This document shows positions 3,370-20,294 of a stretch of 21,175 bases of DNA, one piece after another. A program made the position numbers and the translations under genes. The DNA is taken from positions 1 to 21,175 of the IMG/VR virus record IMGVR_UViG_3300031975_000198, one strand, 5' to 3'. The DNA comes from a virus. The notes under the pieces are model-generated. The model searched no databases and was not told the DNA's origin. It worked only from the letters and a program-made list of their open reading frames with translations. The first letter of the stretch is position 1, and the number at the start of each line of letters is the position of its first letter.

Positions 3370-3806
3370 TGCAACATGAAATGTTTGACATAGAATTATT
3401 TAATACAGATGGAGAGACTAAAACTTGCAGTAAGTGTAATAAAAAATTACCATTGGCTAGTTTTAGTGTTTCATCAGGTGCAAACTTTCTTAGACCTGAG
3501 TGTAGAAAATGCAATACTGAATTAACTAAAGTTAGAAATACTCTTAGAGCAAAATATGGTATGCCTACGGAAGGTCATGTTTGCCCTATATGCGAAAGGA
3601 ATGAATCAGATGTTGCAGGTAAAGGTGGATTAAGAAATGGTGCATGGGTTATTGACCATTGCCATGATACTGAAACTTTCAGAGGTTGGTTATGTCATAG
3701 TTGTAATAGAGCATTAGGTGGTTTTTCAGATAGTGTTGACATTTTAAAAAAAGCTATTATGTATTTAAAGAAACATAGGGAGACACTAAATGAAACTAAC
3801 ACTTGA
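3369..3806 (+). CDS. Recombination endonuclease VII-like nuclease
   Basis: This 145-residue protein has two cysteine-knuckle units. C20/C23 with C45/C48 form an N-terminal zinc-finger-like motif. C72/C75 with C109/C112 frame the beta-beta-alpha-metal nuclease core, where D96-H97 (VIDHCHD) are the catalytic residues, and the segment after it (RGWLCHSCNRALG) is characteristic of T4 endonuclease VII relatives. The family cuts branched DNA such as Holliday junctions and packaging intermediates. It sits between helicase and polymerase, starting within the helicase stop (TAATG) and overlapping the polymerase start by 17 bases. A free-standing HNH homing nuclease is the main alternative, but the cysteine layout favours endonuclease VII. 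Confidence 0.85.
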   Translation: MQHEMFDIELFNTDGETKTCSKCNKKLPLASFSVSSGANFLRPECRKCNTELTKVRNTLRAKYGMPTEGHVCPICERNESDVAGKGGLRNGAWVIDHCHDTETFRGWLCHSCNRALGGFSDSVDILKKAIMYLKKHRETLNETNT

Positions 3807-5802
3807 TGTAGAGAATACAGTTACACACAGAGATGGTAAGTTACATCTTGACCCATTTGAATCTAACAATAGATTGGTTATGGTTGGTTGTCTAACTGAT
3901 AGTGGCAAGGAATACTTATTCAGAGATAACTTTGATGGAGTACAAGAGTTACTAGACCAAGCGACTATACTCATAGGACATAACATAGTCCATGACTTAC
4001 TGTGGCTATGGGAGTGTGGATTAAAGTATGATGGTGCAGTGTTTGATACTATGCTAGTAGAGTATGTGTTACAAAGAGGTAACAAACAACCTTTATCACT
4101 TGAAGCATGTGCTAATAGATATGAGTTAGCTACAAAGAAACAAGACACTATGAAAGAATACTTTAAGAATAAAACACCTATAGATGAGATACCTAAGCAA
4201 GAGTTGTCTGACTACTTATCTGCTGACTTAAAAGCAACACAAGAATTATCAGATGTGTTATACAAGAAACTAAACACAGAAGAGTATGCAGGTTTAATGA
4301 ATACAGTTGTATTGACTAATCGTGTATCTGTTACACTAGCAAAGATATATCAGAATGGATTCACTGTAGATGTTACAAAATTAAATGATGTTAGAGATGA
4401 GTTTGAGAAAGAAAAATTTGAGACTGAGAAGAGACTAAACATACAAGTAAAAGAGTTAATGGGAGATACACGTATCAATCTCAATAGTCCTGAGCAAATG
4501 TCTTGGGTAATTTATAGTAGAAAGCCTAAAGATAAACTTGAATGGGCAAATACATTCTCTCCTTATATGGACAATACTGAATATAAAAAGAATGTCAAAG
4601 AGAAGTCTGACATAGTGTACAAGACGGATGCACAACAGTGTGCAGGTTGTCTAGGCACAGGCTCTGTAAGAAAGGTTAGGAAAAATGGAACTCCTTATGC
4701 TAGAACCAACAAGTGTGATTATTGTAATTCTGTTGGCTACATTTTTGTACCTAGTAAGGTGGTAGCAGGACTGAAGTTTACTGCACCTACTGCTAAGTGG
4801 GTAAGTGCTAATGGATTTACAGTTAATAAAACCAACTTAGCTACACTACAAGGCATAGCTAGGAAGAATAATCTACAACAGGCAGTTAGTTTCTTAACTG
4901 ACCTACAAAGACTATCAGCTTTAGATACATACTTGTCATCTTTTGTTGAGGGCATTACTACACACACTAAGCCTGATGGCAAGTTACATGTAAGATTACT
5001 ACAACACAGGACTGCAACAGGTAGATTCAGTGGTGCTGACCCTAATATGCAGAATATGCCTAGAGGTGGTACATTCCCTGTTAAGAAAGTATTTATATCA
5101 CGTTGGGAAGGTGGTCAGATACTTGAAGCTGACTTTGCACAACTAGAGTTCAGAGTATCAGCATACTTATCACAAGACAAAACTGCAATGAAGGAGATAG
5201 AAGATGGTTTTGACGTTCATAGTTATACTGCTAGTGTTATTAGCGATGCAGGTGAGAAGACATCTCGCCAAGAAGCAAAGGCTCATACCTTTGCACCCCT
5301 CTATGGAGCAACAGGGTTTGGAAGGACACCTGCTCAGGCTACATATTATAAACACTTCACAGAAAAGTACGAAGGAATCGCATTATGGCACTCCAAATTG
5401 GCTAAAGAAGTTATAAGTACTAGAAAGATAACTACACCATCAGGTAGACAGTTCTCATTCCCTGACGTTAGACGAAACTCGTATGGTAAGGTGTCTCACT
5501 TTACACAGATAAAGAACTATCCTGTTCAGTCGTTTGCTACTGCTGATATAGTTCCTCTTATATTAATAAATATAGAAAATGAATTAGCAAACTTAAAGTC
5601 TTGTATTGTAAACAGTGTGCATGATTCTATAGTCATAGACATACACCCTGAAGAGATACAAAAAGTTATTCATGTTATTAAAATAGTCAATAGTAAAATG
5701 ATTAATTTAATTAATAATGAGTTTGCATTAGAGTTCAATGTTCCATTATTATTAGAAGCAAAAATAGGTAATAATTGGCTTGACACAAAAGACGTTATGT
5801 GA
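3790..5802 (+). CDS. polA: Family A DNA polymerase with 3'-5' exonuclease and DnaJ-like zinc insert
   Basis: This 670-residue replicative polymerase has an intact proofreading domain (about 1-160): D6/E8 in exo I, N65/D69 in exo II, Y142/D146 in exo III. Palm and fingers occupy about 395-670, with motif A around D448 (EADFAQLEFR), motif B R493, K497, F501, Y505 (RQEAKAHTFAPLYG), and motif C H611-D612. F501 matches E. coli Pol I residue 762. Between the domains, C284/C287 (CAGCLGTG) and C309/C312 (CDYCNSVG) form half of a DnaJ-type zinc centre; this partial DnaJ domain is known from HMO-2011. No 5'-3' exonuclease domain is present. The start follows GGGAG with seven bases spacing and overlaps the endonuclease gene by 17 bases. 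Confidence 0.96.
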   Translation: MKLTLDVENTVTHRDGKLHLDPFESNNRLVMVGCLTDSGKEYLFRDNFDGVQELLDQATILIGHNIVHDLLWLWECGLKYDGAVFDTMLVEYVLQRGNKQPLSLEACANRYELATKKQDTMKEYFKNKTPIDEIPKQELSDYLSADLKATQELSDVLYKKLNTEEYAGLMNTVVLTNRVSVTLAKIYQNGFTVDVTKLNDVRDEFEKEKFETEKRLNIQVKELMGDTRINLNSPEQMSWVIYSRKPKDKLEWANTFSPYMDNTEYKKNVKEKSDIVYKTDAQQCAGCLGTGSVRKVRKNGTPYARTNKCDYCNSVGYIFVPSKVVAGLKFTAPTAKWVSANGFTVNKTNLATLQGIARKNNLQQAVSFLTDLQRLSALDTYLSSFVEGITTHTKPDGKLHVRLLQHRTATGRFSGADPNMQNMPRGGTFPVKKVFISRWEGGQILEADFAQLEFRVSAYLSQDKTAMKEIEDGFDVHSYTASVISDAGEKTSRQEAKAHTFAPLYGATGFGRTPAQATYYKHFTEKYEGIALWHSKLAKEVISTRKITTPSGRQFSFPDVRRNSYGKVSHFTQIKNYPVQSFATADIVPLILINIENELANLKSCIVNSVHDSIVIDIHPEEIQKVIHVIKIVNSKMINLINNEFALEFNVPLLLEAKIGNNWLDTKDVM

Positions 5803-11320: not shown

Positions 11321-11669
11321 GTTATTTATTGAAGAGGTTATAACACCTGACCTGTATGAAAAACTAGCAGGATGGACTGCTGTCTTTCCTGAAGACAAAG
11401 CACTAGAGTACTTAGCATTAGGTATGACAAGTGAAGCAGGAGAAGTTGCAGGGAAGGTAAAGAAACTTATACGTGATGGTGCTGATAAGGAAGACTTTGA
11501 AGTAAAGAAACTTGCTATAGCATCAGAGATAGGTGACGTACTTTGGTACTGTGCTATGATGGCAAAGGAAGTGGGAGTTCCCTTGAATACTATTATGCAA
11601 GAGAACTTGAGGAAGTTACATGATAGGAAAGAACGTGGAACATTACAAGGGTCAGGGGATGACCGTTAG
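11310..11669 (+). CDS. mazG: MazG-like nucleotide pyrophosphohydrolase
   Basis: This protein carries the all-alpha NTP-pyrophosphohydrolase metal motif in two helices: SEAGEVAGKVKK (ExxE) and SEIGDVLWY (ExxD), E52/E55 and E83/D86 counted from the upstream ATG at 11280. It ends in the usual NLRKLHDRKERGT segment. It would hydrolyse nucleoside triphosphates, possibly including (p)ppGpp-related or aberrant nucleotides; marine phage MazG proteins are commonly discussed as modifying the host nucleotide and starvation state. I chose ATG 11310 because AGGA (11301-11304) lies five bases upstream; ATG 11280 adds ten residues with a weaker site. Its TAG stop overlaps the converging gene's stop. Confidence 0.9.
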   Translation: MKDKLFIEEVITPDLYEKLAGWTAVFPEDKALEYLALGMTSEAGEVAGKVKKLIRDGADKEDFEVKKLAIASEIGDVLWYCAMMAKEVGVPLNTIMQENLRKLHDRKERGTLQGSGDDR

Positions 11670-12973
11670 GTACGTGCCATTAGTCCACCACGTTTAAACT
11701 TGTAACGAACTTGATTATCTATAGGAACATCTCCTTTTGCAGGTAGAGGTTTAGGTGCATCTGCTTTCTTCCAATATGTTACACCCTTAGCATAAACTCT
11801 GTCTCTAAATACAGTAGCTAAATCAAACCCTTTAACAGCCTGTCCTGTTTTTAAGTCAACAAACAGGTGGCTGTTTCTTGGGTTTGTTCCTATTTCTATT
11901 ACAGATTCATCCATCTCATCAAATATATTTCTATTTTTAGTATACTTTCCTTGCACAGACATAGCAGGTACTTTCATACCATCCTCTGCTATCTTTCTTC
12001 TAAGGTTTTGGTCTATATGAAAAGTACCATTTTCTAGACTGACTGCTGTTTTGTATGAGTCGGCTTGTTTGTAATTAGGTTGTCCTTTTACTACAGGATG
12101 TATTGTTTGCATATGATTGAAGGGTGCTTTAGGACCATCTGGGTCTATCTTAGAATTTAAATTTAATCTAACAGAAACTTCTTTACCGTCTTCAACAGTA
12201 GCATTTATTTTTTCATCGCCCTTAGAGCCTAATCCTGATTTACTACGACCACTAACCCTTTCAGTGTTTGCAAAATCATCTATACTATAATTTTTTAATA
12301 GCTTATCAGAGTTTTCTACATTAAATTTACTTAAGCCTATTTCTAAGGGAGGAGAAAGCATCCTTTCGGTTTCAGTCATTTGTCTTACAGGAGAAGGTTC
12401 ACGTTTAGCAGTCATAGCCATTACTTCACTTCTAGTGTAAGTCTGTGGTGCTTTGTCATTAAACTCTTTACCTATCTCGTCAACTTTACGTGTAGCATTT
12501 TCTTTAGATTTCATAGCCACAGCTTCTACACGAGAAAACTCATCTTTAATCTTATCCATTTTAGTAACAGCCTTAACTGCACTACCACCTGCGATAGGTG
12601 GAGTGACAAACTCACCTGCTGAAAAACCTGCTTTAGCATCTTCTTTTAATGTTGGGTCTACTTCTAAGCTGTCAACAAACTTATCAAACACGCCTTTATA
12701 ATACTGAGACCCTAAGTTTTCTTTTGAGAACTCTGAGAAACCATCAGTAAATGCATCCAACCTCTTACCATCTTCTGCTGTTGCAGCTTCCTTTAATCCA
12801 CTGAGTATACCCACTAAATCGGTAGGTAATCCTAATGTAGCACCTACAGCACCTGAAACTGCTCCACCTACAGTTGTGGCTACACCTGTTAGTGCATCAC
12901 CTACACTGTCATATCTAGTAGACTTCTTATCTAAGTCTTCAGATAGTTTTGCTAATTCATTGTCTATTGCCAT
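11666..12973 (-). CDS. Probable internal virion protein, 435 aa
   Basis: This is the last gene of the minus-strand structural operon. The N-terminus has a glycine-zipper-like hydrophobic segment (about 25-62, GVATTVGGAVSGAVGATLG), then a helical, charged middle and a globular C-terminal region with NPRNSHLFVD and KGVTYWKK. It ends in KRGGLMART, a tail shared with the virion protein at 17530. I do not recognise a catalytic domain; the C-terminal region recalls parts of large phage polyvalent proteins, but only by impression. It starts in the stop of the 1127-residue gene (TAATG), so the two are probably made together and may work together in DNA ejection. Converges on MazG with a four-base overlap. 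Confidence 0.8.
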   Translation of the reverse strand: MAIDNELAKLSEDLDKKSTRYDSVGDALTGVATTVGGAVSGAVGATLGLPTDLVGILSGLKEAATAEDGKRLDAFTDGFSEFSKENLGSQYYKGVFDKFVDSLEVDPTLKEDAKAGFSAGEFVTPPIAGGSAVKAVTKMDKIKDEFSRVEAVAMKSKENATRKVDEIGKEFNDKAPQTYTRSEVMAMTAKREPSPVRQMTETERMLSPPLEIGLSKFNVENSDKLLKNYSIDDFANTERVSGRSKSGLGSKGDEKINATVEDGKEVSVRLNLNSKIDPDGPKAPFNHMQTIHPVVKGQPNYKQADSYKTAVSLENGTFHIDQNLRRKIAEDGMKVPAMSVQGKYTKNRNIFDEMDESVIEIGTNPRNSHLFVDLKTGQAVKGFDLATVFRDRVYAKGVTYWKKADAPKPLPAKGDVPIDNQVRYKFKRGGLMART

Positions 12974-15900
12974 TATAATTCACCTGCCTTTGAACCATAT
13001 ATTTTAGCTAATTGTAATCCAAAATTTAAAATATTCATAGGCTCTCCATTGTACATTATATACTTATCTCTATCAGCATCAATAGATTTGCCCTTATATC
13101 TCTTGGTGTAATACTCGTTTACTCTATCTTTATATAATTGAGTAGTCCTTGACCACTCCGTAACACTTAATCTAGAGTAATTTGCTCCGTTTTTCATGGC
13201 TTCTGCTTCTATTCTTTCACGTGCTATATCTCTAGCTTCATCTATTTTAATTTTTGCTTTTCTTTTTAGCTCAACACGTTTTGCCTTTACTCCGTCAAGA
13301 TTTTTGTATTCTTCACTGTCTATAAAGTTAGCCATACTTTCATTTAAATTACCTTCTCCTCCTGCCTTACTAAGTATTTCAGTCATGTATAAATCTAACA
13401 TTTCGTCAGAAGGTCTCTTATATAACTCTCTATCTTCCATATTTAAGTTAGCTATTTCATTTTGAAACTTATTCTTAGGTGCTCTTCTAGATGCACCAAA
13501 CATTTGTTTTTCTGCTGGAAGTACAGCTTTTATATCACCTGTTACAAAAGGTGTTCTTAATGGTTTTTCATAAGGACCTTCACCTGTCCAATCAACTACA
13601 GGGAAATCAGGAAGTGCTCTTGTCGCTTTATTATACACAATATCAAGAAAGTTAGTATCTCCAGTTTTAGATTCAGGTACATATCTTGATTTTTCATCAT
13701 ACTGTGAATAAAAATCTTTTACTACAGATGCAGGTAAAGCAAAAGTATTACCTATATTTCCCACAAATTGACCAGCTACTTTTTTCCACGCATCACCTGA
13801 ACCACTTCCAAAGTCAGTCCAAAGTTTATCTAGTGCATACAATCCCATACCTGTTCTAAAAGTAGAGCCTAACAAAGCCTGTGCTATGTCTGTGCCATAT
13901 CTTCTGATAGAAAAAGTAGGCAGTGTGCCTTCCATTGGCTTATCATGTTCAAGTATAGTTCCTTTAGTTTTATCATATATAAACTGTCCTGCTTGAGTTC
14001 TGTATAAAATATCTGCTGCCAACATAAAGGGAGCAAAAGGACCATATAAAGGTCTACCATCTATAGTATTTCCTTGAGAGTCAGTCATCTCATACCATCT
14101 ATTAGTGTTGCCCTGCTTTGCTCTCCAAGCATATGCTGCAGTAAAAAGAAGAGCACCTGTTAACTGTTTAGATGTTCTATCCTTCCAATCATATGCTTTA
14201 GCACCTTTAGCTGTTCTAGATTCTATACCTAATCGTAGCCTATCAAGTGGTAACATACCTATTAAAGGAGTGTGTTCATATACAAATTTAAGTTGGTTAG
14301 CAACATAACGTGGGAAGGGAAGTAAACTAGATATAACAAAAGGAACAGCTTTATGTAGTGATATAACTCCTTTACCTAATTGTCCAAAGAAGTTATCACC
14401 TTTAGGTGTTGCTTGATAAGTAAATTCAAATGCATCTTGAGTTGATTTTTTTAATATATCGTCAGGTATTAATTTAAAGTTACCTGACTCTAATATTGTC
14501 TCTAGTGTGTGGAATTTTTGTTTATCTAAACTTAGACTTTTAACAGTGGCTGTGTAGTCAGGGGATTGCCTATAGTCATCTCCTAACTTTTGTTTTAGTC
14601 TACCTTTAATTATAGTTTCTTTGTGAGCATCTGTCAAGACTAATTTTTTAGTAGCCTTACTCTTATTCAAATCATTTATATTTCTTCTTAGAGATGACAC
14701 AAACACGGCACGTTTAAATATGTTATCAGAAAACGTATTCATAACATTTAACTTTATGCCTATTTTTTGTAGTCCACTACCTGCACCTGTAGCAACTTCA
14801 ATGTCAGCCATATCTCTAAACAACCTACCTGCTGCATCAGGAAAGTCCTTTTTAAATATTTGTTTTACTACTTGTGCTTCATATGGGTTAAGTAAAAACT
14901 TAGCCACATCAAATGTGCCACTAAAAGGATTTCTTAAATTCAATACGTTATCAAAACTTCTACTAAATGCATCTACAATAACACGAAAACCTGCGTTCTC
15001 TGTGTTACGCATAGCTGTTGCAGGTTGCGATGTCATAACACCTAATCTAAGTTGGTCAATGTTTCTTCCCATACCACCAAAAGGATTTATATAATCTAAA
15101 GTCTTACCCATTATAGATGGTTTTTTTGTTATCTGTTCCATCTCTTTACCTGTAACAGAAGCTAAACCCTCTTCACCTAGCTCATCAACATCTCTTAATA
15201 ACGTTTGAACAGACTTACTAACCTGACCTGATGCTTGAAGTGTTCTACCTGCATCTGATACTTCAGATAGATACATCAAAGAAAACTGCTCGGAGCTTAA
15301 ATTATGCTCATCTAGTATTTTAGTTATATCAGTAGATACTATGTCTTCATTTCTCAGTGACCTAGCAATAGCACTAGTTATTCTTTCACCTTTTTGTGGT
15401 TTAATCTTGTTACGTATTTGAATAGCTGCGGCTGATATGTTTTGAAATAGTTCAGCAGGAATACTAGCAGTTAATGTATCGCTTTCTGATAAAGACTTTC
15501 TAATATTTTTACCTGATGCAACGTCTACTTCATCTAATGGGTCTAGTTTACCTTTTGCTTCAGGCTTTAATGATTTTAGTGATTGTTCAACACTATCTAA
15601 GTCTTCCTTAGATGCATTTTTAAGTACTTCATCTGTTTTTACTTTAGCTTCTGCAGCCTTAGTAACATCAACATTCTGTATTCTCTCTAATCTTTGAGCA
15701 GCTTTAATTGCAGAAGGTGTTAATAAACCACTAGTGACAGCACCTATACCACCACCTACAACTGCACTACCTAGTCCTGTAGCTAAAGTTCTACGACCTG
15801 TAAATGTTTCCTGAAGACCTGTCTCAACTCTAGTGCCTTCTTGAGCTGCACCTTGAACTGTTCCTATAGCACCTTCAACTGCACCTGCCTTCAAACCACC

Positions 15901-16356
15901 TTTTAATGATTGTGAAAGTATAGTACGTAATCCAAACTTAATGCCTTGTTGCCCTGCAACAGATGCAAGTTTACCTGCACCACCTGTTAGTATACCTGCT
16001 ATAGTAGATGGAGCAGACACTATACCACCAAAATAGTCACCTACTTTACGCATAGACATCTTTTCATCTGCCATGTTATCATACACATCCATGACCCTAC
16101 CAAAGTTTGCACGTTGTTCTTGCGTACCATTCTGTGCATATTCGTAGTCACGTATAGCTGTTACTTCATTGACATCTTGATAACGAAAGTGTTCCATGAA
16201 AGCATCATAGACATCTTCACTTGATTGCATATTCTCAGGAGATGAACTAGCACGTTCAGTTAAAAACTTACGTGCATCAGCAATGAAGTCCTCATCTTGC
16301 GAGAGAACTTCTTTATTCATATCTTCTTTTGTGTAGTAATTATAATCTTTTAACAC
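12973..16356 (-). CDS. Large internal virion / DNA-ejection-like protein, 1127 aa
   Basis: This is the largest gene of the window. Residues 1-100 are charged and helical (RYQDVNEVTAIRDYEYAQ). Residues about 105-215 are glycine- and alanine-rich with zipper-like spacing (AGAVEGAIGTVQGAAQEG; GLGSAVVGGGIGAVTSGLL), suited to membrane insertion. The rest is long, mainly helical, with a marine-phage internal-protein segment near LGVMTSQPATAMRN. No lysozyme or transglycosylase motif is seen. Size, place at the end of the virion operon and hydrophobic segments fit a T7 gp16-like ejection role, which is inference. The start codon is GTG (16354-16356) with AGAAAG upstream; an in-frame ATG at 16320 is an alternative. 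Confidence 0.82.
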   Translation of the reverse strand: MLKDYNYYTKEDMNKEVLSQDEDFIADARKFLTERASSSPENMQSSEDVYDAFMEHFRYQDVNEVTAIRDYEYAQNGTQEQRANFGRVMDVYDNMADEKMSMRKVGDYFGGIVSAPSTIAGILTGGAGKLASVAGQQGIKFGLRTILSQSLKGGLKAGAVEGAIGTVQGAAQEGTRVETGLQETFTGRRTLATGLGSAVVGGGIGAVTSGLLTPSAIKAAQRLERIQNVDVTKAAEAKVKTDEVLKNASKEDLDSVEQSLKSLKPEAKGKLDPLDEVDVASGKNIRKSLSESDTLTASIPAELFQNISAAAIQIRNKIKPQKGERITSAIARSLRNEDIVSTDITKILDEHNLSSEQFSLMYLSEVSDAGRTLQASGQVSKSVQTLLRDVDELGEEGLASVTGKEMEQITKKPSIMGKTLDYINPFGGMGRNIDQLRLGVMTSQPATAMRNTENAGFRVIVDAFSRSFDNVLNLRNPFSGTFDVAKFLLNPYEAQVVKQIFKKDFPDAAGRLFRDMADIEVATGAGSGLQKIGIKLNVMNTFSDNIFKRAVFVSSLRRNINDLNKSKATKKLVLTDAHKETIIKGRLKQKLGDDYRQSPDYTATVKSLSLDKQKFHTLETILESGNFKLIPDDILKKSTQDAFEFTYQATPKGDNFFGQLGKGVISLHKAVPFVISSLLPFPRYVANQLKFVYEHTPLIGMLPLDRLRLGIESRTAKGAKAYDWKDRTSKQLTGALLFTAAYAWRAKQGNTNRWYEMTDSQGNTIDGRPLYGPFAPFMLAADILYRTQAGQFIYDKTKGTILEHDKPMEGTLPTFSIRRYGTDIAQALLGSTFRTGMGLYALDKLWTDFGSGSGDAWKKVAGQFVGNIGNTFALPASVVKDFYSQYDEKSRYVPESKTGDTNFLDIVYNKATRALPDFPVVDWTGEGPYEKPLRTPFVTGDIKAVLPAEKQMFGASRRAPKNKFQNEIANLNMEDRELYKRPSDEMLDLYMTEILSKAGGEGNLNESMANFIDSEEYKNLDGVKAKRVELKRKAKIKIDEARDIARERIEAEAMKNGANYSRLSVTEWSRTTQLYKDRVNEYYTKRYKGKSIDADRDKYIMYNGEPMNILNFGLQLAKIYGSKAGEL

Positions 16357-16372
16357 TATCTATCTTTCTATA

Positions 16373-17530
16373 TTACGGAAAATACTTTTTGACTATAGCT
16401 ATTGCTCTTTCTCTATTCATACCACCTATTTCTATAAGCTGTTTAATAAACTGTTGTCTGAACTTTGCTTTACCATTAGAATCTAACTTCTTAAACTTTT
16501 CTGAATTAGCACCTGTAATTTGTTCCTTTAATATTTTAGCAATCTCATTAACATTTTCAGGAACTTTTGGTATCACAGGTTTTTTATTACCATCACCCTT
16601 GGGTTTTTCAGGTATTAAATTTTCAGGGTCTGCATCTCCAATTTTTTTATTATTATCTACTTTTAGAGTACCCTGTGTAGCTAACTCTTGGTCTTCTTTT
16701 ATTCTTTTTAATATCTCTTCATAGGCTTCTTCTTTATTATAGTTACCACTCCTAACTAAAGACCTCCAAAGACTAATATACTTTGCTGATAATTCTTCAG
16801 AAAAATTCTTATCTGAAACTCTTTGCACATTAAACTTAGGCTCTCCACCAATAAAAGATAAATCTCCTCCTAGCTTACCAACTATATATCTTTGTAAATC
16901 GTTTTTAACTTTAGAAGCTGTTAATGTACCACTTTCAGACCTTAATAATTCTTGAGCTTTAGGAGTTACGTTACCACTAAGAGCACTAGCTAAAGCATCA
17001 AAGTCAACAGTACTATCTGATTCTGTTGGAGACAGTGATTCTACACGTTGTTTTATCTTATCGCTTGGGTCTCCCTCTATTCCTATAGCACTCAAGAAAG
17101 TTCCTCTCTTAGGTATTCCAGATAAATCTATAGTAGGCTGTTTATATTTACCTACAATGGCTTCAGATAAATCAGAAACAGACAATGCTCCGTCATACTT
17201 AGATGTTACTTTATATAAAGTATTTAATTTATCTTTAGGTGTTGTTTTGGCTAACTTAATAAAATCGTTTGTCAACCCTTGACTTACAATACCTGCTGAT
17301 TCTTGTTTGCCATATCCTACAGCAACAAGCTGAGACATTTCTTTACTATATTCACTTACTCTCTGCCTTCTTCTTTCTTTAGAATCTAATCTAGCTTTAA
17401 TAATCATACTAGCTGAATCTTTAACTAATTCATTAGTGTATGCTTCATCTTTGTCTATTACTTCTTCTACACCAGAAGCAACACCACCTAAAAAACTTAC
17501 TGCTTTATTTGATAAGCCAAATAAACCCAT
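16373..17530 (-). CDS. Probable internal virion protein, 385 aa
   Basis: This protein starts with a short glycine-rich hydrophobic stretch (GLFGLSNKAVSFLGGVASG). It continues as a helical charged region, then carries a Pro/Lys-rich linker (about 305-330, IPEKPKGDGNKKPVIPKV) before a C-terminal helical module. No enzyme motif is recognised. Its ATG overlaps the preceding stop (TAATG at 17528-17532), and 16 bases separate it from the 1127-residue gene, placing it in the same transcript. Context suggests a virion core or ejection component comparable in position to T7 gp14/gp15, but this is inferred from order alone. Confidence 0.75.
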   Translation of the reverse strand: MGLFGLSNKAVSFLGGVASGVEEVIDKDEAYTNELVKDSASMIIKARLDSKERRRQRVSEYSKEMSQLVAVGYGKQESAGIVSQGLTNDFIKLAKTTPKDKLNTLYKVTSKYDGALSVSDLSEAIVGKYKQPTIDLSGIPKRGTFLSAIGIEGDPSDKIKQRVESLSPTESDSTVDFDALASALSGNVTPKAQELLRSESGTLTASKVKNDLQRYIVGKLGGDLSFIGGEPKFNVQRVSDKNFSEELSAKYISLWRSLVRSGNYNKEEAYEEILKRIKEDQELATQGTLKVDNNKKIGDADPENLIPEKPKGDGNKKPVIPKVPENVNEIAKILKEQITGANSEKFKKLDSNGKAKFRQQFIKQLIEIGGMNRERAIAIVKKYFP

Positions 17531-18042
17531 TAACTTCTCCTTGCCATTAATCCCATAGCAGGTTCATCTTTTTCTTCTACTATGTCCATTTCTTCAGTTT
17601 CTTGCATACCTTCTTCTGTGCCACCTAAATCATCTTTTAATGTAGCTAATGCTGCAGCTATATCTGAATCTTTTGTTTCAGTCTTTGCATCTCTTTCCAT
17701 ACCTGTAACATAATCAATACCTTCATTCTTAGCTATCAATTTCATCATTTCAATAAGCACAGGCATAACAAGAATACCTACGTCTACACTATGCCTTCCT
17801 TCCATAACACCTGCTAATTGTATTGTATTTGCTAGTGTTGTTAAGGGCATACCCATTTCAATAACATTTAATAAACTATCTGTAAAAGCATCATCTTGCA
17901 TACGAGGTAAGTAGTATTGTATTGCTTCTTCTACTGTAGGATACTGTGCAGGTTGCTGCCAAGGTCTAGAACCTACCTCGTTAGTCATAGCCATTCCGGG
18001 AATAGGTGCTTCAAGTCTTGGCTCTAATTTAGGCACTGCCAT
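17530..18042 (-). CDS. Marine-phage virion-associated protein, 170 aa
   Basis: The core VEEAIQYYLPRM ... VIEMGMPLTTLANTIQLAGVMEGRHSVDVGILVMPVLIEMM resembles a small conserved virion-associated protein of marine podoviruses and myoviruses; its exact place in the particle is unknown to me. It has a proline-rich head (PKLEPRLEAPIPG), an acidic tail region and a final GLMARRS. The frame extends to an ATG at 18051, but the AGGAG at 18052-18056 touches that codon; the ATG at 18042 has nine bases of spacing and gives the more natural start MAVPKLEP. It overlaps the upstream gene by 14 bases. Confidence 0.82.
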   Translation of the reverse strand: MAVPKLEPRLEAPIPGMAMTNEVGSRPWQQPAQYPTVEEAIQYYLPRMQDDAFTDSLLNVIEMGMPLTTLANTIQLAGVMEGRHSVDVGILVMPVLIEMMKLIAKNEGIDYVTGMERDAKTETKDSDIAAALATLKDDLGGTEEGMQETEEMDIVEEKDEPAMGLMARRS

Positions 18043-18265
18043 TTGATTCATCTCCTATATCTCTAATAGTTTTTACGTACTGAGCTACTCTAGCTAGAGG
18101 ACTTTTTTCCCTATCGTCATTTTTGTTTTTTATGCTTTTGGTTGACCTTAAAAGACCACTCTTACCACTACTTGTTTTCTTTTCACTTTTACCTTCTAGA
18201 CTCTTTAAATAAGCATCTATCTTATTTACAATCTGAGGTGCTGGGTTACTACTGTATCTACTCAT
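18029..18265 (-). CDS. Small basic hypothetical virion-operon protein, 78 aa
   Basis: This is a lysine- and serine-rich protein with a basic middle (SEKKTSSGKSGLLRSTKS) and a helical C-terminal end (ARVAQYVKTIRDIG). The frame is open up to an ATG at 18313, but the ATG at 18265 is preceded by AAGGAGA (complement of 18274-18280), which overlaps the stop of the upstream 671-residue gene; I take it as the start. No known domain. Basic composition could mean DNA or RNA contact inside the capsid; that is a guess. Confidence 0.75.
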   Translation of the reverse strand: MSRYSSNPAPQIVNKIDAYLKSLEGKSEKKTSSGKSGLLRSTKSIKNKNDDREKSPLARVAQYVKTIRDIGDESNGSA

Positions 18266-18273
18266 ATTATGTT

Positions 18274-18280
18274 TCTCCTT
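18274..18280 (-). promoter_or_regulatory. Shine-Dalgarno AAGGAGA deciding the start at 18265
   Basis: Read on the minus strand, AAGGAGA lies eight bases before the ATG at 18265 and overlaps the TAA stop of the 671-residue gene. It argues against the longer frame starting at 18313, which would have to initiate within the upstream coding sequence. Confidence 0.7.
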
Positions 18281-20294
18281 AACTAAATAAACCTGCTGAT
18301 ATAGCTGAAGCACCTAATTTACCTAATAGACTACCTATAGCCGAAGCTCCTGCTGAACCTGCATTTTCAGAAGCCACAGCTGCTCTAACATCAGCATCAA
18401 TGTTAGCTTTTGCTAACTCCGTGTTCCTGTCTAATTCTCCTTCAGCACTCTTCCATGCCCACTCCATAGTGTCTGCATAAAAGTTCCAAAGGTTAGCATA
18501 CTCTGTATTAGATACGTCTAACACTGCTTTAGCATTTAATTCATTGGCACGATTAACTGCGGCAGTATCTGCTGTGGCAATCTCTCTTCTCCACACTGCA
18601 TTGTTCTGTGCAATAGCTAATTGGTTAGTAGCATTAAATTGGTCACGTTGATTAGCTACTTCTGCATTAAATCTTCCTACAGTATTTTCTTCTCCTGCAT
18701 TAAATTGATTTTGTGCATTTCTTTGTGTAGCATTATATTGTGATATTTGATTTGCTAAATTAGACATGAATTGGTCTGTTTGATTCTGAGAAGTAGCATT
18801 AAATTGATTTGCAGCATTTGTAGCAGCTTGGTCTGTTAACAGTGCTGTGTTAATAGCTTCTGCATTAAATAAAGCAGTTTGTTGTTCATTAGTTAAGTTA
18901 GCCATTTCCATATCTATAAACGACTTAGCATTATTAACTGCTGCTTGTTGCCTGTTATTTAAGTTAGTAGTATCTAGTTGTGTAAGAGCTGCAGCTTCTG
19001 CCATGACTAGTGCCTGACTATTACTTAAGTTTTGTAAGTTCATAGTATTTACAGCACGACTATTCTCTAAGGCAATATTTTGTTCAGCAGTAAAATTCTT
19101 ATCGGCTATGTCACCTATCCTAGCAGAGTTCTGCACTCTTGCTTGAAAGGCTTGGTCAAATTCCTGACCTATAAATGTTGCACGTTGCTCTGCCGCTAAC
19201 ATTGCTCTAGCTTGTCTGTTAGATAAGTTCTGAGACTCAAACTTTGCTGTTGTTGCTGCATCAGCCTGTGCTATAGGAAGTGCTGATTCTAATGCACCTT
19301 GTATCATGGCTTGTCCTGCCATTGAAGATGCACCCATTCCTCTAGCAGCCATCTGTGCCTGAATACCTCTTAATGTTCCTGCTGCCCACGGTGGTGGGTT
19401 ATTAGAATCAAAGTTTGCAGTAAGACCTGCTAGTTGTCCTTGAACAGTAGCCTTTTCTGAAGGGGTAGCAGTGGCAGCTTGTATCTGTTCTGTATACTTA
19501 GATGCTTTCTCTGCATTAGCAACACCATCAATTAACTCACCATCTTGTATTTCCCTCTGCATAGGGTTTTCCATTAATATGGCATTACCCTGTGCAGCAT
19601 CTAAATCTCCTACACTAGAAGTTGTCTGTTGAGCTGCTGTAATCTTTGCTTTTGGGTCATCGGGGTCTAGTTGAGCTGCCGTATTAGCTTCTACTGCTGT
19701 CCTTATATCAGGAGTTACATCTGTTGATGTTACAGTATTAGCAGTTATCTGTTGAGCAGAATCAGCCTGTGCTGTATCAGCAGTAGATGTAGTTACATCA
19801 GTAGCATCTCCTACCTCACCTGTGCCTGTAGCAACTAATTGATTTTCATTTTGTTGTATTAGTTCAGGTTGTGTAACAGCACCTACAGGTATAGCACCTG
19901 TCTGTGCTAGTTTTGCAGTTACATCTGTTACTGTAGCAGGTCTAGTGCCCTCTACAGGATTACCCTCTTCGTCATACGTAGTAGTAGCTATATCACCATA
20001 AGCATCTACCTGACCCTCTCCTGTTCCTAGTGTGGGTACATAGGCTTGTTCTTGAGGTTCAGGCGTAACAGGTGGCATTGGCTGTGTAGTTACATTATCA
20101 CCACCTTCAGCAAACCTACGTACAGAACCACCACGAGCCATCTGTTGTGCTTTAGCTCTATACACAATCATCTCACGTTCTTTGTCAGGGTTTGCCTTTA
20201 TGTAGTCATCAAACTTCTCCATATCACCAGCATAACCCATGCGAGTAGCTATCTTCTGTAATCCTTGTGGCTTAAAGCCTTTAAACATTGCCAT
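18279..20294 (-). CDS. Large repeat-containing virion protein, 671 aa
   Basis: This is a multi-part structural protein. Residues 1-65 are basic and globular, ending in ARGGSVRRFAEGG, a linker-like motif I associate with marine phage virion proteins. Residues about 66-230 are low complexity, rich in T, Q, D and P. A globular piece follows (about 230-350). Residues 356-597 form a continuous 11-residue repeat rich in A, N and Q, probably a long coiled coil. The C-terminus (about 640-671) is a Gly/Ala/Ser-rich hydrophobic tail (GASAIGSLLGKLGASAISA). It could be a tail-needle, tail-tube-extending or ejection protein; no enzyme motif is seen. AGGA lies nine bases before the ATG. Confidence 0.85.
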   Translation of the reverse strand: MAMFKGFKPQGLQKIATRMGYAGDMEKFDDYIKANPDKEREMIVYRAKAQQMARGGSVRRFAEGGDNVTTQPMPPVTPEPQEQAYVPTLGTGEGQVDAYGDIATTTYDEEGNPVEGTRPATVTDVTAKLAQTGAIPVGAVTQPELIQQNENQLVATGTGEVGDATDVTTSTADTAQADSAQQITANTVTSTDVTPDIRTAVEANTAAQLDPDDPKAKITAAQQTTSSVGDLDAAQGNAILMENPMQREIQDGELIDGVANAEKASKYTEQIQAATATPSEKATVQGQLAGLTANFDSNNPPPWAAGTLRGIQAQMAARGMGASSMAGQAMIQGALESALPIAQADAATTAKFESQNLSNRQARAMLAAEQRATFIGQEFDQAFQARVQNSARIGDIADKNFTAEQNIALENSRAVNTMNLQNLSNSQALVMAEAAALTQLDTTNLNNRQQAAVNNAKSFIDMEMANLTNEQQTALFNAEAINTALLTDQAATNAANQFNATSQNQTDQFMSNLANQISQYNATQRNAQNQFNAGEENTVGRFNAEVANQRDQFNATNQLAIAQNNAVWRREIATADTAAVNRANELNAKAVLDVSNTEYANLWNFYADTMEWAWKSAEGELDRNTELAKANIDADVRAAVASENAGSAGASAIGSLLGKLGASAISAGLFS
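18504..19229 (-). repeat. Hendecad (11-residue, 33-bp) protein repeat tract
   Basis: Residues 356-597 of the 671-residue protein fall into 22 consecutive 11-residue units without a break in phase. 22-residue pairs start at N356, E378, N400, N422, N444 and N466 with leads such as NLSNRQ, NFTAEQ, NLSNSQ, NLNNRQ, NLTNEQ. Later units show a recurring aromatic at F476, F498, F509, Y520, F531, F542 and F553 within (Q/R)(F/Y)NA. The repeat is visible in the protein but weak in the DNA, so it is old and maintained by structure. Such periodicity is typical of slightly right-handed coiled coils. Confidence 0.85.

Follow-up and report, generated by a model that had tools for sequence, protein, structure and literature searches.

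Whole-unit length changes in the 11-residue-repeat rod of a candidate DNA-ejection protein from HMO-2011-type short-tailed phages

The locus and its conserved gene cassette

The window analyzed here is a stretch of viral DNA of 21,175 nucleotides (IMG/VR record IMGVR_UViG_3300031975_000198). Its minus strand carries gene R, which encodes a rod protein and is followed on that strand by S, T, U, V and X:

18279..20294, stop included, minus strand: gene R, rod protein, 671 aa (open reading frame)
18029..18313, minus strand: gene S, small protein called at 94 aa with an uncertain start, overlapping the 3' end of R; 14 homologs
17530..18051, minus strand: gene T, a PIPGxSLT-family member of 173 aa whose C-terminus is a GLMARR tail, accompanying R
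16373..17530, minus strand: gene U, 385 aa, quickly diverging and hydrophobic at its N-terminus, in the position of gp15/gp20-like ejection proteins
12973..16356, minus strand: gene V, a large protein of 1127 aa, in the position of gp16-like ejection proteins
11666..12973, minus strand: gene X, 435 aa, with a C-terminal GGLMART tail; 5 homologs found, all with the tail
17539-17553 (in T) and 11672-11689 (in X), minus strand: GGLM[A/S/G]R tails, a C-terminal motif

Homologs of R were found by tblastn in 27 phage records, in which they are labelled hypothetical, apart from one 'huntingtin' and one unannotated entry. They occur in HMO-2011, the Roseobacter CRP phages, Pelagibacter phages, phiM6 and related Rhizobium phages, Vibrio phage CHOED, Aeromonas phages MQM1 and 1233 and Pseudoalteromonas phage Slicky01, with a more distant one in vB_Pun_Y3. 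IMG/VR holds 570 stretches related to R, and HMO-2011-type phages are among the commonest virus groups of the ocean. PHROGs, Pfam and NCBIfam contain no family for R. A Pfam search with 13 R-family members (E 0.1) returned nothing except S74 and a chance family, and a sequence search of solved structures with profiles of R, T, U and V gave nothing useful. In the literature, we found no proteomics or structure for any R-family member.

R, T, a mid-size U and a large V close the virion block in every annotated relative for which this region is shown, and the order R-T-U-V recurs in HMO-2011, phiM6, CHOED, MQM1, HTVC115P, Slicky01, CRP and ctYwJ313. T adjoins or closely trails R in each relative examined, distant ones included. 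It is strongly conserved, and held-out homologs were recovered from HTVC033P (E 3.5e-42) and CRP-212 (E 1.7e-33); U and V diverge quickly. Profile searches revealed no solved or annotated relatives of U or V, and a sequence search of solved structures yielded none for T. A tail of the form GGLM[A/S/G]R closes 147 of 160 T proteins, 5 of 5 X proteins and a small number of U and V proteins, compared to 1.6% of other ORFs, and R itself carries a related motif, MAxGGxV, near residue 55. Judging from these sequences, the GGLMAR-like tails may act as a common packaging or docking signal. Elsewhere in the window, DNA polymerase A (3790-5802) shows a weak match to a DnaJ-type CXXCXGXG profile (Pfam E 0.0017), and HMO-2011 carries the same annotation.

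Domain architecture of R and its 11-residue period

R is composed of the following segments:

20100..20294, minus strand: residues 1-65, N-terminal helical domain ending in a MAxGGxVxxFAxGG motif, kept in HMO-2011-type homologs
19461..20099, minus strand: residues 66-278, variable Thr/Ala/Pro-rich linker (83 N-terminal lengths; Pro 6.7%)
19239..19460, minus strand: residues 279-352, head module, PxWA...ARGxxxSSxAxxA...ALPIAQxDA, the top conserved block in all subfamilies
19269-19277, minus strand: residues 340-342, PIA anchor, a measuring point for rod length
18504..19229, minus strand: residues 356-597, hendecad rod (periodicity, length quantization, no Pro, predicted helix)
18585..18593, minus strand: residues 568-570, WRR anchor, the other measuring point for rod length
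18363..18503, minus strand: residues 598-644, post-rod segment with a conserved W/Y-rich block, predicted to be helical
18282..18362, minus strand: residues 645-671, Gly/Ala-rich C-terminus, mildly hydrophobic by hydropathy

The first-pass annotation of this DNA had described a strict 11-residue phase, kept for 22 units. The phase is exact, as the 242 residues of the rod equal 22 x 11. Self-identity amounts to 19-22% at lags 11, 22, 33 and 44 (z 4.7-5.6 against shuffles, with a 99.9% quantile of 4.5 for the maximum over lags), while none of the remaining lags up to 49 rises above z 1.7. The peaks at 11 and 22, by which that annotation proposed to check its claim, are thus both found. Column information against shuffles is equally selective, with z = 10.0 at period 11 and z = 9.6 at period 22, and never more than 1.0 at other periods from 3 to 24. 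Of the 22 units, 16 have Asn at phase 1 (p about 8e-9), and F/Y recurs over six successive 11-residue steps (residues 498, 509, 520, 531, 542 and 553). The two halves that had been distinguished, the first with NLxNxQ and the second with (Q/R)(F/Y)NA, are both present. The term strict applies to the phase and not to the residues, as several single units are degenerate. The 11-residue period is present in each R homolog examined.

The composition of the rod follows the same phase. Proline is absent from the rods of the family (0 of 43,874 residues), against 6.7% in the N-terminal regions of the same proteins. In all subfamilies, phases 5 and 9 hold most of the charged residues, phases 1, 4, 6 and 7 are rich in Asn/Gln and phases 2, 8 and 11 are apolar. 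Two AF2 runs, both of monomers and uninformative on oligomers, predict helix nearly throughout residues 324-669 (mean pLDDT 62-64, pTM 0.26-0.28), and on these models the body of R is probably one long, proline-free alpha-helix in 11-residue phase. In a Foldseek search, all matches to the first model had E >1 and were to unrelated proteins, for the most part coiled coils. The proposal of a straight helical coiled coil of about 35 nm therefore holds in part: the lack of proline, the kept phase, the quantized length and the predicted helix all favor a long straight helical element, but clear support is lacking for a plain hendecad coiled coil with a single hydrophobic seam. That reading is weakened by the placement of apolar residues at phases 2, 8 and 11 and of amides at 1, 4, 6 and 7, and by the apolar harmonics, of which 11/4 is the strongest and the 3.67-residue harmonic is weak. 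Given these harmonics, each rod helix may touch neighbors on several of its sides, in the manner of a bundle or barrel.

The segments around the rod differ in their conservation. Residues 11-50 are predicted as helices at pLDDT 81-89, and the head module is kept even in the distant vB_Pun_Y3 protein. The C-terminal tail differs between subfamilies. Its Gly/Ala-rich, hydrophobic character had been put forward as suitable for membrane contact; the tail exists, but the membrane argument is weak, since its best 19-residue hydropathy is 1.38, under the usual transmembrane cut-off of 1.6, a level reached by none of the tails of the anchored homologs. In 35 of 193 homologs, including HMO-2011 (locus L081, 19888-20118), an extra CWVAREVYG domain follows the Gly/Ala tail; within the phage collection, it occurs in HMO-2011 only. 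Genomes with CWVAREVYG-like segments (L337-L389) are mostly Planctomycetota, in which the proteins have Gly/Met-rich linkers before the segment, some segments lie mid-ORF and several occur per genome. As a clue to the function of R, this domain led nowhere. A Peptidase_S74 intramolecular chaperone forms the C-terminal end of the homolog in Roseobacter phage CRP-738 (L087, 10609-13023; Pfam 1.7e-10, also found by PHROG). The match of this homolog to phrog_4287, a 'DNA ejection protein', lies entirely within this chaperone and consequently holds no information on the rod.

Rod length changes in whole units

Rod length was measured between two conserved anchors, the PIA motif ahead of the rod and the WRR motif close to where the rod ends. 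Among 225 homologs (193 anchored by pattern and 32 by alignment), only nine values occur, i.e., 143, 154, 165, 176, 187, 231, 286, 319 and 341 residues. These correspond to 13, 14, 15, 16, 17, 21, 26, 29 and 31 units, with no exception to a multiple of 11 (0 of 225). Some contigs are represented more than once among the 193 pattern-anchored loci; at 90% identity, 93 rods are left. The vB_Pun_Y3 protein, which lacks the second anchor, was left out. No modulo-11 preference is seen in the same proteins outside the rod, where 83 distinct lengths occur on the N-terminal side and 34 on the C-terminal side. If indel sizes were free, the chance that nine lengths (at least eight changes) are all multiples of 11 is estimated at about (1/11)^8. 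Duplication of units accounts for steps in length, but the absence of any other indel is explained only by a constraint. At 0.15 nm per residue, as helix, the predicted rods are about 21 to 51 nm long over the family, with 35 nm for the R of the window and 28 nm for that of MQM1. The longest rod measured (31 units) belongs to the ctYwJ313 homolog (L089, 10345-12936), the one annotated as 'huntingtin', which is presumably a low-complexity misannotation.

Comparison with known systems

The closest working model for R is the DNA pilot protein H of phage phiX174 (PDB 4JPP). Its tube is a decameric helical conduit that starts with three hendecads, is lined mostly by Gln, Asn and Arg and spans the cell wall (PMC7354561). 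Like H, R is alpha-helical (predicted) with consecutive Q/N-rich hendecads (PDB 4JPP; PMC7354561). H is ejected, spans the wall and is monomeric before use (PMC7354561). Unlike R, H continues in heptads after its three hendecads, measures 17 nm and serves an ssDNA phage, whereas R comprises 21-22 hendecads over about 35 nm. We claim no sequence relation between the two, and tube formation by R is putative.

In sequence architecture, R most resembles a subset of tape-measure proteins with 11-residue units and aromatic markers, in which units are duplicated and lost so that their number differs between proteins (PMC3271669); the R family has nine unit counts. Tape-measure proteins set the length of long tails, however, whereas R occurs in short-tailed phages, its rod exceeds the tail and no profile similarity is found. 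By gene position, R corresponds to P22 gp7 and T7 gp14 (PF25688 and PF24072), the first small ejection proteins, which likewise occupy the slot before two larger ejection proteins. A Gly-Ser motif, an N/Q/A-rich helical stretch and a Gly/Ala-rich C-terminus are also shared by eye only, but gp7 and gp14 are about 200 aa long and lack an 11-residue rod; R is larger than a gp14. The likeness of the RG-SS module and the Gly/Ala tail to gp7, gp14 and LUZ24 gp53 is equally by eye and has no statistical backing. Comparison by hhalign, whose sensitivity is limited by shallow reference alignments, gave probabilities of at most 2.6% for P22_gp7 and T7_gp14 (an HMM search was negative as well) and at most 0.1% for P22 gp26, and homology of R to P22 gp7, gp20 or gp26 or to T7 gp14 is rejected on present evidence.

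A candidate ejection protein and the rival readings

It is from its gene neighborhood that we infer R to be a virion protein. R sits among the last virion genes, the place of podophage ejection proteins, and the R-T-U-V order matches the operon order described for such proteins (PMC8954989); the fast divergence of U and V is in keeping with this class. We give about an even chance to the reading that, in HMO-2011-type short-tailed phages, R serves in DNA ejection as an internal virion (pilot) protein and forms an envelope-crossing helical rod or tube. An extended ejection conduit would best fit the neighborhood and the analogies with phiX174 H and tape-measure proteins. Several copies of R would be packed inside the virion together with the partner proteins T, U and V. 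At infection, these copies would exit via the tail and assemble laterally into a thin rod or tube, which would lengthen a tail of about 10 nm across the periplasm and act as a conduit for DNA. We propose that rod length changes in whole 11-residue steps because each step would hold the contacts between helices in register. The accessible part of the MQM1 description (PMC10410586) gives a tail of 9.2 nm and notes no protruding needle; compared to this tail, the predicted 28 nm rod fits better if stored inside. Several observations weigh against the ejection reading: no homology to P22 gp7, P22 gp20 or T7 gp14 emerged from the shallow alignments, none of the homologs has a confident transmembrane segment, the usual single hydrophobic seam is not seen, the monomer models have modest AF2 confidence, and the CRP-738 homolog bears an S74 chaperone.

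The same neighborhood allows an external role, which we regard as unlikely though of some weight: R would be a trimeric needle or fiber like P22 gp26, a tail plug aimed at the host, with the rod as its shaft and the C-terminus as an exchangeable tip. R lies after tail-fiber genes and before ejection-type genes, which is the slot of gp26 in P22, and coat and tail-hub annotations in relatives are of P22 type. The gp26 tail needle also combines a long helical shaft with a gene directly ahead of the ejection genes. The S74 trimer chaperone of the CRP-738 homolog is typical of external fibers, and C-terminal modules are swapped, as the CWVAREVYG domain exemplifies. On the other hand, R shows no similarity to the gp26 family by hhalign, and gp26 is external; R has a large disordered N-terminal half, and a long disordered linker of this kind is unlike a needle plug. 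The GG-V motif near the N-terminus of R is similar to the GGLMAR tails found in T and X, which suggests a shared internal route, and the MQM1 tail, only 9.2 nm by TEM, contrasts with the length of the rod. The external needle keeps its modest share because of the S74 end in CRP-738 and the P22 needle slot beside the ejection genes. From the first-pass suggestion of an undescribed rod or needle, the long helical element emerges well supported, and the external needle is disfavored by the MQM1 tail.

A ruler or plug along the portal/tail channel or inner core, comparable to a tape-measure protein and matched in length to the channel rather than to the envelope, appears rather improbable. In its favor, some siphophage tape-measure proteins have a variable count of F/W-marked 11-residue units (PMC3271669), reminiscent of the six F/Y steps at residues 498-553 and the whole-unit length changes in R, and the crAss001 cargo protein gp45 spans from the capsid to the tail barrel (PMC10172136). 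Yet the R phages are short-tailed, R matches no tape-measure family profile and, in the single case of MQM1, the predicted rod is about three times as long as the tail, so that it is not a ruler of tail length in that phage (PMC10410586).

It is very improbable that the units are amphipathic helices coating a membrane, as in apolipoproteins or alpha-synuclein. The 11-residue period and the mildly hydrophobic C-terminus would suit such a coat, but the 11-mers of R are not strongly amphipathic (hydrophobic moment 0.15 at 98 degrees and 0.21 at 100 degrees), 28% of the rod residues are Asn or Gln, the net charge is -7 and charge is confined largely to two phases. Hardly credible, finally, is a repeat that is a mere by-product of tandem duplication without structural role: duplication of units, documented in tape-measure proteins (PMC3271669), would by itself give multiples of 11, but in 93 rods at <=90% identity the phase persists, with zero non-unit indels and zero Pro, and conservation differs sharply between phases in every subfamily.

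Within the preferred reading of R as an ejection protein, a more specific form is less likely than not: in an abundant class of ocean phages, a single protein would build a DNA conduit 21 to 51 nm long, alpha-helical, rich in amides and quantized in length, as a dsDNA counterpart of the phiX174 H tube, with the number of units tuned per lineage to the barrier. For phages with short tails, R links two known ideas, tape-measure proteins made of units and the H tube of phiX174. Because its rod changes only by whole units, the construction and sizing of ejection channels become clearly open to testing.
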